A stretch of 64,000 nucleotides of DNA from Salinicoccus sp. Bachu38. Lineage in GTDB: Bacteria; Bacillota; Bacilli; Staphylococcales; Salinicoccaceae. This document shows, one piece after another, positions 11,818-17,301 of the stretch; the stretch's first letter is position 1, and the number at the start of each line of letters is the position of its first letter. The DNA is taken from positions 1,612,001 through 1,676,000 of the forward strand of contig NZ_CP138333.2 of assembly GCF_038561955.2 (NCBI RefSeq), written 5' to 3'. Position numbers and translations under genes: made by a program. The notes beneath the pieces are model-generated. The model was not told where the DNA came from, did not search any database, and saw only the letters and a list, made by a program, of their open reading frames with translations.

Positions 11818-13116
11818 TTAGGATAATAACTCGGTAAATCTTTTCTCATATTTTTGGATGTCGCCTGCTCCCATGAAGATGATGACAGCTTCCTTATGTG
11901 AATTGAGCTTGTCGATATCCCCTTCTGCCAGCAGTTCGGCATCCGGAATCAAATCCACAAGGTCCCGGCTTGACAGATCGCCCGCCTGTTCCCTTGCTGA
12001 ACCGAAAATATCCACAATGTAGGATTTGTCCGAGGCGGACAGGGCTTCTGCAAACTCATTCAGGAACTTTTCCGTCCGGGAGAAAGTATGGGGCTGGAAA
12101 ACTGTGACGATTTCCCTCCCATTATATTTCTTCCTTGCCGTTTCAAGGGTGGCCTGTATTTCTTTGGGGTGATGTGCGTAATCGTCGACGATGACCATGC
12201 CATTTTTGAACGTTTCGCTGAAACGTCTCTTCACCCCCCCGAAAGTCATGAATGCCTTTTTGATATTTTCCATATCAAGCTTCTCCAGGTAGCCCACTGT
12301 GATCACCGCAAGGGAATTCAACACATGGTGGTCTCCATACATCGGAATCGTGAACCTGTCCAGGAACTCGCCTTCCACGTGGACATTGAAGCGGGTCCCA
12401 TTGGGGAGGACTTCAATGTCGGAGGCACTGATGTCGAATTTGTCTCCGATGCCGTAGAAATAGACAGGAACATCATAGGACATGCTTCTTGTATGGCTGT
12501 CCCCCCCATAGGCGATCACAGCCTTTTTGACCTGACTCGCCATTTCGGAAAATGCATCGATGACATCCTGGAGATCCTTGAAATAGTCCGGGTGGTCGAA
12601 ATCTATGTTGGTGATGATGGCATAATCAGGATGATAGCTTAAAAAGTGCCGCTTGTATTCGCAGGATTCGAAAGTAAAGTATTTGCTGTCCTCAAGACCA
12701 AAACCTGTGCCATCCCCTATGAGGAAAGTCGTATCAACGTCCCCATTCATCACGTGGCTGAGCAGGCCCGTGGTGGAAGTCTTGCCGTGGGCACCAGTGA
12801 CCGCAATTGAGGTGAACTGGTTCATGAATTGTGAAAGGAACTCATGGTAGCGTATGACCGGGTATCCCCTTTCCCTTGCTGCGCTGATTTCGGGATGGTC
12901 ATCACCAAAGGCGTTGCCTGCAATGTAGGTGAAACCCTCCACGATGTTCGACGCATCAAAGGGCAGGATCCTTATACCCTTGTCCCTGAGCTGGTGTTCA
13001 GTAAACACTTCCTTTTCTATATCGGCCCCCTGGACCTCATGACCGAGGTCATGAAGCACCTGGGCCAGCGCACTCATGCCTGCGCCCTTGATTCCTATAA
13101 AATGATATTTTTCCAT
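11818..13116 (-). CDS. murC: UDP-N-acetylmuramate-L-alanine ligase
   Basis: Cytoplasmic Mur ligase adding L-Ala to UDP-MurNAc in peptidoglycan synthesis, 432 residues. It shows the N-terminal [11 protein letters not shown] nucleotide-binding loop, the ATP P-loop [22 protein letters not shown] and [13 protein letters not shown] 13116. It lies 28 nt downstream of the sftA-like gene, probably in one operon with it. The order ytpR-sftA-murC is shared with Bacillus and Staphylococcus. Confidence 0.96.
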
Positions 13117-13144: not shown

Positions 13145-14878
13145 TCATCGGAATATCCCTTTCAGATGAGAAAGGACATCTTCCTTGATTTCTTGGGACA
13201 GCACTCCGGCATTCACGCGGAGCGGCTTATTGGACGTGGGAATCTGGATCAGCATATCATTGCCTTCAGTGAGCTCTTTCGCCCCTTCAACAACCTTGGA
13301 CTTTCCATCCTTGAATGATATGCGCGTCTGCATCATCTGGAGCAGTTCGAAACGGATTCCCACATCATTTCTTGAGTGGTTCATGATGAGGTGTATGCCG
13401 AGCGGCTTCCCTTTCTTCAGGATCTGTACAATCGCCCGTATGGCTTCGGGATTATTATGCTCGAACAGCTCTGCCAGGTCGTCGATGACGACCACCATCA
13501 CGCTTTTTTTAGCTTCATTGCTGACCCGCTGGTTGAAGCTGTCCAGGTTGCGTACATGTGCCCTTCTGAATTGGTTGTGCCTGTTGTTCAGCTCTTCCAG
13601 AACATTCTGCAGTACATGCTTGCCGGTGATGGACTTCGGTGCACTGAACATATGAGGCAGGTCTTCATATTCCTTGTAATGGGCCTTGTCGGAAGCGATC
13701 ATGATCTGAAGCTCCCTCGGATTATGGTTCATCATGAGGGATACGAGGATGTTATCGACCACTGCAGATGAATGGTCCGGCTCCCCTCCATAGATCAGTA
13801 CCTGGCCTGCCTTCTTCAAAGGAAAACTGAAAATCTGATCATCCACTGTTTTCCCCACTACAAATTTGAAGTCATTTTTCCTGAGTTTGAGGCTGCTGGA
13901 GGAAAACAGCGTACTGAAAGGTATCGGATACGGATCCGGTAGGATGAACTCCACACCTATGTTACTTGTTCCCGCAATGGGGACGATCAGTTTAAAGTCT
14001 TCAAACGGCAGCTCAGAAAGCAGGTGTTCCTTCAGCTTTCCAACGACATTCAATCTGAAGTTTCTTTTCATCGAAAGCTCATAGCGGCCGACGATGCCAT
14101 TGGTTCTGTAGGCAGCGACTTTAACAGGCACACCAATAGCGTCAAAAGCAGCAACTATTTCCTCGGAGAGCGCTTCGTCCACGCTGTCGTAGCTGCTGTT
14201 CTGACCTTCGCCCAGTATATGTAGGGGTGGCAAGGTGCTTTTCGGGCCACTCCGTTTTACCTGATTCTGATTTTTGGATCTGTATTTATTCTTGTCGTAG
14301 GGAGTCATCATGACATTGAAAGGAGAAACGGATTTCTGATCAGCGGCATTATCTGCAGCGGGAGTTTCTGCACCCGCTTCCTTCTCCATCTTTGTTTGGC
14401 CGGACTGGCCGGTCACAACGCCGATGGATCTTTCAGCCTCTGCCTTTTTCGCCCTTTCTTCCATCCGCTTCTGCTGCTTTCTTTCACGCTGTTGCCTTTC
14501 CCTTTTCAGTTCTTCCACAATCGGTGATGAATATCCGGATTTCTGATCTTCAGGGGAAGTATCTGACTCATCCTGTTTTCCAGCATTCGGATTCCCTTTC
14601 GAGCCATGGATTGCAGAAGGCACTGCACGCGCTTTGCTGATTGTATTTTTCCCTGGTCTCTTCCTGGAATAGCGACTCCCGCCCAGCAGCGACTTCTGCT
14701 GCTCTTTTCTTATGGGATCGCTGTTTTCCTGTTCTTTTCCTGGTGCCTCGGGCCGTTTTTTAATGGTTTCATCGCCATCCTTGTCATCCATGTCCAGGGG
14801 GAACCTGAAACGTTCCCTGTCGGAATGACCATCTTCAAGCCTATGATTGAATTGTCTTCTCCTTCTTGATCTATCCAT
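13145..14878 (-). CDS. Degenerate FtsK/SftA-type DNA translocase homologue
   Basis: 577 residues from ATG 14878 (GGGTGAG upstream; GTG 14887 lies inside it). Residues 1-210 are highly charged, low-complexity and probably disordered. Residues about 230-575 align by eye with the FtsK/SpoIIIE motor: DEALSEEIVAAFDAIGVPV, GVEFILPDP, a Walker-B-like VVVIDDLAEL near residue 464, GIHLIMNHSR and NKPLRVNAGVLS. The Walker A loop, normally GATGSGKS, reads GGEPDHSS (near 365) with no lysine, and no gamma domain follows. The position matches ytpT/sftA. Probably not an active motor; a structural or regulatory role is inference. Confidence 0.8.
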   Translation of the reverse strand: MDRSRRRRQFNHRLEDGHSDRERFRFPLDMDDKDGDETIKKRPEAPGKEQENSDPIRKEQQKSLLGGSRYSRKRPGKNTISKARAVPSAIHGSKGNPNAGKQDESDTSPEDQKSGYSSPIVEELKRERQQRERKQQKRMEERAKKAEAERSIGVVTGQSGQTKMEKEAGAETPAADNAADQKSVSPFNVMMTPYDKNKYRSKNQNQVKRSGPKSTLPPLHILGEGQNSSYDSVDEALSEEIVAAFDAIGVPVKVAAYRTNGIVGRYELSMKRNFRLNVVGKLKEHLLSELPFEDFKLIVPIAGTSNIGVEFILPDPYPIPFSTLFSSSSLKLRKNDFKFVVGKTVDDQIFSFPLKKAGQVLIYGGEPDHSSAVVDNILVSLMMNHNPRELQIMIASDKAHYKEYEDLPHMFSAPKSITGKHVLQNVLEELNNRHNQFRRAHVRNLDSFNQRVSNEAKKSVMVVVIDDLAELFEHNNPEAIRAIVQILKKGKPLGIHLIMNHSRNDVGIRFELLQMMQTRISFKDGKSKVVEGAKELTEGNDMLIQIPTSNKPLRVNAGVLSQEIKEDVLSHLKGIFR

Positions 14879-14889
14879 CCGTCTCACCC

Positions 14890-15480
14890 TTATTTCACTT
14901 CAAATGGTTGCGCTACTTCATAGCTATCGTCCAGTACATAGATGCCCTTCACTCCGTCATCCTCAAGGTTCAGTTCCTTCTTCGAACAGATCATGCCCTT
15001 CGATTCCACGCCCCTCAGTGTTGAAGGCTTGATATAGAGCCCGTCAGGCATGATTGCACCGACTTTTGCCACAACGACCTGCTGGCCGGAATCGACATTC
15101 GGAGCACCACAGACGATCTGCAGCTCTTCCTCCCCGACATCTACCTTACAGACATTCAGCTTGTCTGCATCCGGATGCTTTGATTTTTCCGTCACTTTTC
15201 CAACGACGAACTTGGGAGAGAGATCCGGATTGATCTTTGCGATCCCTCTGCTCTCGAGCAGTGAGTTGATGCTCCCGAGTATCGTTTCATCCGCCTCGAT
15301 GTTCACTTCGTCCGGCAATGCGATATGCTTGGACGCATCGAAAATATTCAGGCCGATGATTTCATCATCGCTCTTGATCACTGTCAGATCTTCATGGAAT
15401 TCATATGTCGGGTTTTCCGCTTTTTTCAAAGTGACGAGCAGTACATCTCCAACATGCTGGTAATTATAAGTCAGTTTCAT
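14890..15480 (-). CDS. ytpR: YtpR-type tRNA-binding-domain protein
   Basis: A 196-residue protein with a DUF4479-type N-terminal half and a C-terminal OB-fold tRNA-binding domain like that at the start of PheT ([39 protein letters not shown]). Its cellular substrate is not established. ATG 15480, overlapping the upstream gene by 4 nt; GAGGTAGAG lies upstream. The orthologue has the same position next to sftA and ytpQ in Bacillus. Confidence 0.92.
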
Positions 15481-16289
15481 TCATCTCTACCTCTTTTATG
15501 ATTCTTTTGTTTGCCCAGTATGAATACTGGTTCCAGTTTCTTTTCACGATAAGAGAACGAGAGGGAAGTAATCGGTGTCAGCCCTTCAGCGAAGTACTGC
15601 ATCATCATCTGTGCCATGATATCGTAACCGACACTGTTCCTCACGTTCGCGATGATCAGCACATCCTGGTGCGGCAGGCCGACCATCATCTCTCCATCGA
15701 AGTTCTCGTGCATTTCATCGAGAAGCTGTGTGTTCAATATGCGCGTCGCATCGTATCCATCGTTATGGTTGATGAAATAGAAATCATTCTCCTGGATCGT
15801 CTCCTTCTTGTGTGAGACAGGCAGACGCTTCATATTTTTATCAGCCAGCTTCCTCAATGCCTCCTTGTCCAACCCCAAAGTCTTCAGAAGGGGCTCATCA
15901 ATCAGCCGATAGCTGTTCTTGAAATCTATTGCGTAATATATTTTCGTTTCATTCGTATGGTCATCCACGACAAACGGGTCGCCATTCTTATTCTTCCTGT
16001 GGAAGCTTGAAGAACGGATGACGGGATATACGCCCGATTCATCCAGCGTGATCGCTTCCTCTTTCATGCGTTCAAGCGTCTCATCTATATAATAGACGAT
16101 TTCCTCTATGAAATTCTCGTCCTTCTTTACTTTATCCACCGCTTTTGACAGTGCAATGTCCAGGCCTTTGCCATTATCATTGCGCTCCACCCTGAGCATC
16201 TCCTCTTCACGGTCGAAGGAAGTCTGGAAATCACTCCGTTTTTCATTGAGCTTCTCTATGATTCTATTTTTAAGCTGGAAAATATTCAT
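15477..16289 (-). CDS. ytpQ: DUF1444 protein (YtpQ)
   Basis: A 270-residue cytoplasmic protein of the DUF1444 family; function unknown. The start is set at ATG 16289 ([10 protein letters not shown]...) because GGAGG sits 7 nt upstream; an open extension to 16322 lacks a ribosome-binding site. It overlaps ytpR by 4 nt (ATGA), so they are translationally coupled. The neighbourhood matches B. subtilis ytpQ-ytpR, but thioredoxin-like YtpP, expected just upstream, is replaced here by a membrane protein. Confidence 0.88.
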
Positions 16290-16305
16290 GAAATTGCCTC
16301 CAGTT

Positions 16306-17301
16306 CTATTCTTTCGCACCAATTCTTAGCTTCTGATCTCCGTCCTTGATCAGTCCTGCGCGTTTCAGCAAAGTATAGAATAACAGAGTTACCAGGGCAG
16401 GTAAAACGATTTGGAACACGAGGATGAGCAGCCATACCTCCAGGGAAGGCCCCATCGTCTCTATCGTCATGATCTGCCCGACCAGGCCGCTGGTGCCCAT
16501 TCCGGCCCCGGCAGCATTGTTTTCCATCGGGAAGAAAACCGTCATTACAGGAGCGATGACAGCACTTGCCAGAACAGGGGGCAGGATGACAAACGGATTC
16601 AATAGTACATTCGGCACCTGCAGCATGGATGTGCCGATTCCGATGGATATCAGTCCTGAAAACCCATTATCCCTATACCCGGTCACAGCCAATCCTACCA
16701 TATGGCAACAGCACCCGATGACCGCAGCTCCCGCGGCAAGGCCGCTCAGGTCGAGCATCAGTGCAAGCGCTGCGCTGGAGAGCGGCGCAGTCAATGTAAT
16801 TCCGAAGATGACTGCCACGAGCATCCCCATTATGAAAGGCCTCTGCTCGGTGGCAAACACGATCACTTCGCCCATGCTCGTCATGAAGTCACCGATTACA
16901 GGGCCGATGAACCGGGCAACGAGGTAGCCCAGTACAATCGTCAGGAATGGCGTCACAATGATGTCGATCTTCGTTCTTCCTGCGTACAGGCGGGCGACTT
17001 CAATTGCGATGATGCTTGCGATATAGCTGCCTGCCGCACCCCCCATATCATAGGCGGCATAACTCACGACGACCACTGAAAATATCACAAGTGGCGAAGC
17101 CTTCAGACCATAGGCGATGGCGGCACCAATTGCGGCACCAGTCATGCCCATCGCCACTGCACCAATCTCCTTGAGGCTTTCAAGATAAGGGACATAAGTC
17201 CCGATCGTATCGATGATCAGCCCGATGATGAGTGAAGAAAACAGACCGAGTGCCATGAAACTCATGCCATCAATGAACCATCTTCTCAGGAGGCTTCTCA
17301 T
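16306..17301 (-). CDS. PTS EIIC-like / PfoR-type membrane protein
   Basis: A 331-residue, very hydrophobic protein with about eight to ten membrane segments and Gly/Ala-rich loops, resembling the PTS_EIIC_2 (PfoR-like) family. No IIA or IIB domain or phosphorylation-site cysteine/histidine context is seen, so a complete sugar PTS is not encoded here. The ATG shares one base with the upstream M42 peptidase stop (TGATG). Substrate unknown; an uptake or sensory role is a guess. Confidence 0.75.
   Translation of the reverse strand: MRSLLRRWFIDGMSFMALGLFSSLIIGLIIDTIGTYVPYLESLKEIGAVAMGMTGAAIGAAIAYGLKASPLVIFSVVVVSYAAYDMGGAAGSYIASIIAIEVARLYAGRTKIDIIVTPFLTIVLGYLVARFIGPVIGDFMTSMGEVIVFATEQRPFIMGMLVAVIFGITLTAPLSSAALALMLDLSGLAAGAAVIGCCCHMVGLAVTGYRDNGFSGLISIGIGTSMLQVPNVLLNPFVILPPVLASAVIAPVMTVFFPMENNAAGAGMGTSGLVGQIMTIETMGPSLEVWLLILVFQIVLPALVTLLFYTLLKRAGLIKDGDQKLRIGAKE

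Follow-up and report, generated by a model that had tools for sequence, protein, structure and literature searches.

The closest described systems to the gene analysed here are SftA of Bacillus and FtsK of Staphylococcus aureus (SAOUHSC_01857), which are soluble translocases of the divisome. According to excerpts of PMC11790237, B. subtilis SftA binds the Z-ring with support from SepF and FtsA, and excerpts of PMC12755775 and PMC12272431 describe S. aureus FtsK as acting in segregation and also in a complex with Trigger Factor and the amidase Sle1, a hydrolase which it also controls and which is degraded in cells without FtsK. We examined a window of 64,000 nucleotides from Salinicoccus sp. 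Bachu38 (contig NZ_CP138333.2, positions 1,612,001 to 1,676,000; the source genome is one contig of 2.62 Mb) and found that its SftA/FtsK orthologue has no Walker A motif, catalytic glutamate, arginine finger or gamma domain, all of which characterise active translocases. We consider it probable that in the window's own family (f1) this protein is a motor-dead, non-translocating divisome adaptor, with DNA pumping left to SpoIIIE. The gene is an open frame on the minus strand (13145-14887), and its product, counted from the ATG at 14878, has 577 amino acids (aa) and is 92% identical to that of the nearest named relative, Salinicoccus luteus.

13145..14878, minus strand: motor-dead SftA/FtsK orthologue, 577 aa from the ATG (open frame, Pfam, synteny)
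14887, minus strand: alternative start, GTG
13766..13789, minus strand: former Walker A slot GGEPDHSS, residues 364-371, aligning to GATGSGKS of 23/23 active SftA
13478..13495, minus strand: degraded Walker B VVVIDD, residues 462-467, with Asp467 at the catalytic Glu position
13406..13408, minus strand: arginine-finger position (P. aeruginosa FtsK Arg620), Lys491
13370..13381, minus strand: phosphosensor and loop II positions NHSR, residues 500-503 (ATQR in active motors)

We aligned 31 f1 proteins, one of them (L027) truncated at a contig edge, to 13 proteins from another family (f4, by inference the Staphylococcaceae) and 10 SftA from other Bacilli; two further families, f2 and f3, were also compared. 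With G018 (two contig fragments) and G019, f1 comprises 33 genomes. Catalytic positions are numbered as in P. aeruginosa FtsK, for which residue roles, including that of Arg620 as the canonical arginine finger, are given in excerpts of PMC9410874. The P-loop was GATGSGKS in all 23 active SftA, whereas f1 has S, D, A, T, V or H at the lysine position, with K in a single case, and just one G is left where the second and third glycines stood. Walker A was absent in 33/33 f1 genomes, including G018 and G019, which rules out a sequencing error or a single-strain pseudogene. The original prediction had read GGEPDHSS in the Walker A slot and noted the missing lysine, and this was borne out by the alignment to GATGSGKS; its statement that the frame is uninterrupted and no simple pseudogene also holds, with no stop found within any f1 match in a family search of the 33 genomes, which span six genera. 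In G014 a profile match with active SftA overran the stop of the gene by a few codons (one TAA), which we take for an end-extension of the match.

The other residues which handle ATP are also altered. At the position of catalytic Glu596 we found D in 28/31 f1 proteins, N in two and E in one (G017), and the DE pair is retained in two genomes, G017 and G019. All 31 proteins have the first Asp of Walker B, and the Walker B-like VVVIDD is recognisable as predicted, but its catalytic Glu has been lost and it is degraded too. The arginine-finger position is R in 23/23 active proteins and K in 31/31 f1 proteins, phosphosensor residues Thr630 and Gln631 were found in none of the 31, and the DNA-gripping Arg632 of loop II is Arg in 14. 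A usable P-loop elsewhere, which was to count against the original prediction, was not found by pattern search: [AG]x4GK[S/T] does not occur in the 31 f1 proteins or in the f2 protein, and the sole GKT (residues 342-344) lies, in the alignment, upstream of the slot. GATGSGKS, VIDE, the finger motif and a gamma signature were all present in another 26 f4 loci from 25 new genomes, which brings the f4 genomes examined to 38 of 108.

13949..14233, minus strand: FtsK alpha domain, residues 216-310 (PF17854, 32.5 bits)
13376..13900, minus strand: FtsK/SpoIIIE motor (RecA-like) domain match, residues 327-501

The protein matched Pfam FtsK_SpoIIIE at 55.2 bits (cut-off 24) and FtsK_alpha at 32.5 bits (cut-off 22.9), both matches being much weaker than in the two active orthologues compared (217 bits for the motor). 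FtsK_gamma (PF09397) had no Pfam match in it, whereas these two orthologues and the genome's own SpoIIIE scored 91-99 bits, in agreement with the predicted loss of the gamma domain. The alpha-beta motor fold is retained in a structure model, in which the P-loop slot is a helix that starts early; the N-terminus, which is probably disordered, is of low confidence. An earlier full-length model, made from 6 sequences, was poor (predicted local distance difference test score, pLDDT, 44.5). By Kyte-Doolittle hydrophobicity there is no transmembrane span, as in active SftA: the maximum 19-residue mean was 1.40, compared to 1.26 and 1.33 in two active SftA and 2.72 in the genome's own SpoIIIE. A second complete spoIIIE/ftsK gene had been proposed as a check, and one was found: a SpoIIIE-like protein is the genome's sole other FtsK_SpoIIIE match, with an intact GSTGSGKS, a gamma domain at 98.9 bits and a weak 4TM match under the Pfam cut-off. 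A DNA pump is therefore still encoded elsewhere in the genome. SpoIIIE has the same fold, but its hydrophobic spans, intact motor and gamma domain are all absent from the window protein, which does not belong with it.

11818..13116, minus strand: murC, downstream neighbour
14890..15480, minus strand: ytpR-like gene, upstream neighbour
15477..16322, minus strand: DUF1444-like gene, part of the conserved cluster

Two of these neighbours are presumably ytpR-like and DUF1444-like genes. The cluster order DUF1444-ytpR-X-murC was found in f1 (in L027, at a contig edge, only X and murC are visible) and in 13/13 f4 loci, where X is a full-length SftA/FtsK. The window gene lies at the SftA/FtsK position between ytpR and murC and is, by position, the SftA/FtsK orthologue of f1.

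We estimated the ratio of non-synonymous to synonymous substitution rates (dN/dS) by the Nei-Gojobori method for eight pairs drawn from twelve loci of the window's genus, with dS > 1 in two pairs. Over the whole gene the ratio was 0.085-0.139. Its alpha-motor part alone gave 0.031-0.125 and its N-terminal part 0.113-0.267, and for the neighbours we obtained 0.023-0.057 (murC), 0.035-0.067 (DUF1444) and 0.054-0.218 (ytpR). The former P-loop holds the most variable six-residue window of the f1 motor (rank 1/258), and 71 positions which are invariant in active SftA vary in f1. However, 63 columns are invariant among 16 f1 proteins, and at 16 sites at least 95% of f1 proteins agree on a residue other than the active consensus. 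Other residues conserved only in f1 form two clusters: SSSLKLRKNDFKF..GK..DD..FS, in the stretch that separates the alpha match from the motor match, and QFRRAHVRN. As dN/dS is low and the P-loop variable, yet new residues are conserved, this pattern fits a changed protein and not a decaying one. With the ATPase motifs absent family-wide and a second, complete gene (SpoIIIE) present, the predicted pseudo-ATPase under selection is well supported. That the whole family shares this state, that it extends to the arginine finger and phosphosensor, and that N-terminal motifs of active SftA persist, goes beyond what the original prediction could see.

14795..14809, minus strand: motif 1 FRFPL, residues 24-28, F[RKP]FP[LIMFV], shared with active SftA
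14603..14635, minus strand: motif 2 KARAVPSAIHG, residues 82-92, PS[PASV][IV][HYF]G
14495..14521, minus strand: motif 3 IVEELKRER, residues 120-128, shared with f4-type SftA
14300..14323, minus strand: motif 4 PFNVMMTP, residues 186-193, within f1 only in the window's genus

Active SftA across Bacilli have FRFP, PS[AP]IxG and PFNVxM in common in an otherwise variable N-terminal region, and those of f4 also have IVxEIxxER. Motif 1 was found in 29/31 f1 proteins (the contig-cut L027 is one of the misses), 13/13 f4 proteins and 9/10 from other Bacilli; motif 2 in 31/31, 13/13 and 10/10 as well as the f2 protein; motif 3 in 26/31, 13/13 and 0/10; and motif 4 in 12/31, 13/13 and 10/10. Chance matches were ruled out using shuffled N-termini, for which at most 0.063 of 31 were expected (motif 1, 0.010; motif 2, 0.000; motif 3, 0.063). 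We regard FRFP and PS[AP]IxG as candidates for divisome docking. In two loci of the window's genus (L010 and L014) the PSAIHG block is doubled. The P375S suppressor in B. subtilis sftA was also considered as a pointer to the motifs and showed no link: motif 4 is at residue 457 in L097 (953 aa), a Bacilli SftA of similar length used in place of the B. subtilis protein.

At the same locus, the single f2 genome compared (G033:C2:306274-307989, L199:3275-4990) has a still more degenerate homologue which keeps PSAIFG. This 572-aa open frame has no P-loop, INGF as its Walker B and Lys at the finger; it matches the Pfam motor at 48.6 bits and has no alpha or gamma match. It is nearer to active f4 SftA (best BLAST E 9e-34) than to f1 (1e-15). 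Of the f1-specific sites, 13 could be compared, and at three of these (375, 490 and 491) it shares the f1 residue; three more sites are gaps. A murC tree left f2 unplaced. In a six-gene tree of 18 loci f1 formed one clade (100/100, Shimodaira-Hasegawa-like approximate likelihood ratio test/bootstrap) and f1 and f2 were joined at 95.4/91; the approximately unbiased (AU) test rejected f2 outside f1 and f4 (P = 0.0017) but not f2 with f4 (P = 0.247). All six genera share the loss of the motor, which firmly dates it to the base of f1 or earlier. A single loss common to f1 and f2 is favoured over two independent ones: the tree joins the two families, although the AU test also allows f2 with f4. In f3 (G034-G048), 11/15 genomes had one FtsK-type match, three had two or three and one (G046, 96% complete) had none, and SftA may have been lost altogether in this family. 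Viral contigs scanned with the f1 alignment yielded no relative; 64 viral-contig loci (L114-L177) encode FtsK/SpoIIIE-type relatives, with GKS in the P-loop of 18/18 among the matches listed.

As the best explanation, we propose that f1 had lost its motor no later than its last common ancestor and has retained the protein as a divisome adaptor which does not translocate DNA. Its N-terminus, with the linear motifs of active SftA, would dock it at the Z-ring, and its alpha-beta fold would persist as an interaction platform, possibly self-associating, which would no longer bind ATP, move DNA or read polarity sequences, DNA pumping having been handed to SpoIIIE. By analogy to S. aureus FtsK, a likely cargo would be a chaperone-bound septal hydrolase, and we infer that f1 gave up the motor but retained what SftA does in docking and cargo handling. 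A scaffold or divisome role, as originally predicted, is plausible from the shared N-terminal motifs, the presence of SepF in 33/33 f1 genomes and the non-motor role described for S. aureus FtsK. The window's own genome also encodes (L105:1423-2589, at about C1:325131) a protein of 388 aa which starts with a signal-like sequence and carries three LysM domains and, at its C-terminus, a CHAP domain, an architecture like that of the S. aureus amidase Sle1.

Several observations weigh against an adaptor of this kind. Motif 3 is missing in 5/31 f1 proteins and motif 4 in 19/31, only motif 2 of the four patterns matched the f2 protein, and we found no published partner for any of these motifs. The MSWF start, presumably a membrane helix, is present in 13/13 f4 proteins and 0/31 f1 proteins; docking cannot be unchanged, because f1 has swapped it for a basic start (30/31). 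It should also be noted that the dN/dS of the gene exceeds that of murC and DUF1444, so constraint is real yet weaker, and that the equivalent of the trans-acting Arg548 is invariant in f1 (31/31), as a role in mixed rings would also predict. In such a role the protein would be a regulatory or braking subunit in rings with active SpoIIIE, tuning septal DNA translocation. The motor-like fold has been kept, the first Asp of Walker B, like the Arg548 equivalent, does not vary, and mixed SpoIIIE-SftA oligomers were considered in B. subtilis (PMC4744071, excerpts), although the rescue studied there proved independent of SftA. We nevertheless regard mixed rings as unlikely: the arginine finger, which is the canonical residue acting in trans, is replaced by Lys throughout f1, the 71 positions invariant in active SftA vary, the f2 homologue has no alpha-domain match and identity to f1's SpoIIIE is just 24-27%. 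A static clamp which binds DNA at the division site without ATP, or tethers the nucleoid there, would suit the basic core (isoelectric point, pI, 8.8) and N-terminus (pI 9.8) and the basic start of nearly all f1 proteins, but with the DNA-gripping Arg632 equivalent kept in fewer than half of them and the DNA-reading gamma domain lost, we think this quite improbable.

ATP could still be bound through a rearranged pocket, making the protein a nucleotide switch or slow ATPase, and the invariant Walker B Asp, the DE pairs of G017 and G019 and the GKT at 342-344 can be read in this way. We hold this to be very unlikely, as the counterpart of the GKT in active motors is VALGKD/VAMGFK, which precedes the P-loop slot, the P-loop pattern was found nowhere else in the protein and the former slot is the most variable part. 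The idea that the gene is slowly decaying toward full loss, as may have occurred in f3, draws on the absence of gamma and the ATP motifs in f1, the additional absence of the alpha domain in f2 and the f3 genomes with one FtsK-type match or none. It is hardly credible given f1 matches free of internal stops in 33 genomes of six genera, a dN/dS far under 1, and the invariant columns and sites conserved for a new residue.

Compared to known systems, the f1 protein resembles SftA and S. aureus FtsK in its ytpR-murC position (from f4 and other Bacilli genomes), alpha-beta fold, FRFP and PS[AP]IxG motifs and lack of a strongly hydrophobic span. It differs in having no P-loop, catalytic Glu, arginine finger, phosphosensor, gamma domain or MSWF start, and in its length of 577 aa, compared to open frames of approximately 710-1360 aa. 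Degenerate FtsK-type ATPase domains are already established in the EccC/EssC proteins of type VII secretion (PMC11154593, excerpts): there too the cis and trans ATP elements are degenerate and the fold is kept, in their case for another job, and the P-loop slot is an early-starting helix (in a crystal structure there, in a model here). Those are, however, single domains of a multi-ATPase secretion pump, whereas this is the sole motor domain of a chromosome-segregation protein. We found no published motor-dead SftA/FtsK, in a search of open-licence literature only, which is weak evidence of absence.

Retention under selection of an ATP-dead protein across six genera of the family, which is related to the staphylococci, suggests that it has an important job besides DNA pumping. 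More tentatively, one family, perhaps two, may have turned a chromosome pump into an ATP-independent divisome adaptor, in which case what selection maintains at the core of SftA/FtsK would be the non-motor part, namely docking at the Z-ring and control over how septal hydrolases are delivered, and pumping would fall entirely to SpoIIIE. The two short N-terminal motifs and the new set of conserved residues are candidate carriers of the non-motor function, and a translocase assigned by fold alone may translocate nothing. If true, the adaptor conversion would be a natural separation-of-function experiment on SftA/FtsK in these cocci, and through the f1 lineage the balance between the DNA-pump and divisome-organiser roles of SftA and S. 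aureus FtsK becomes directly testable.
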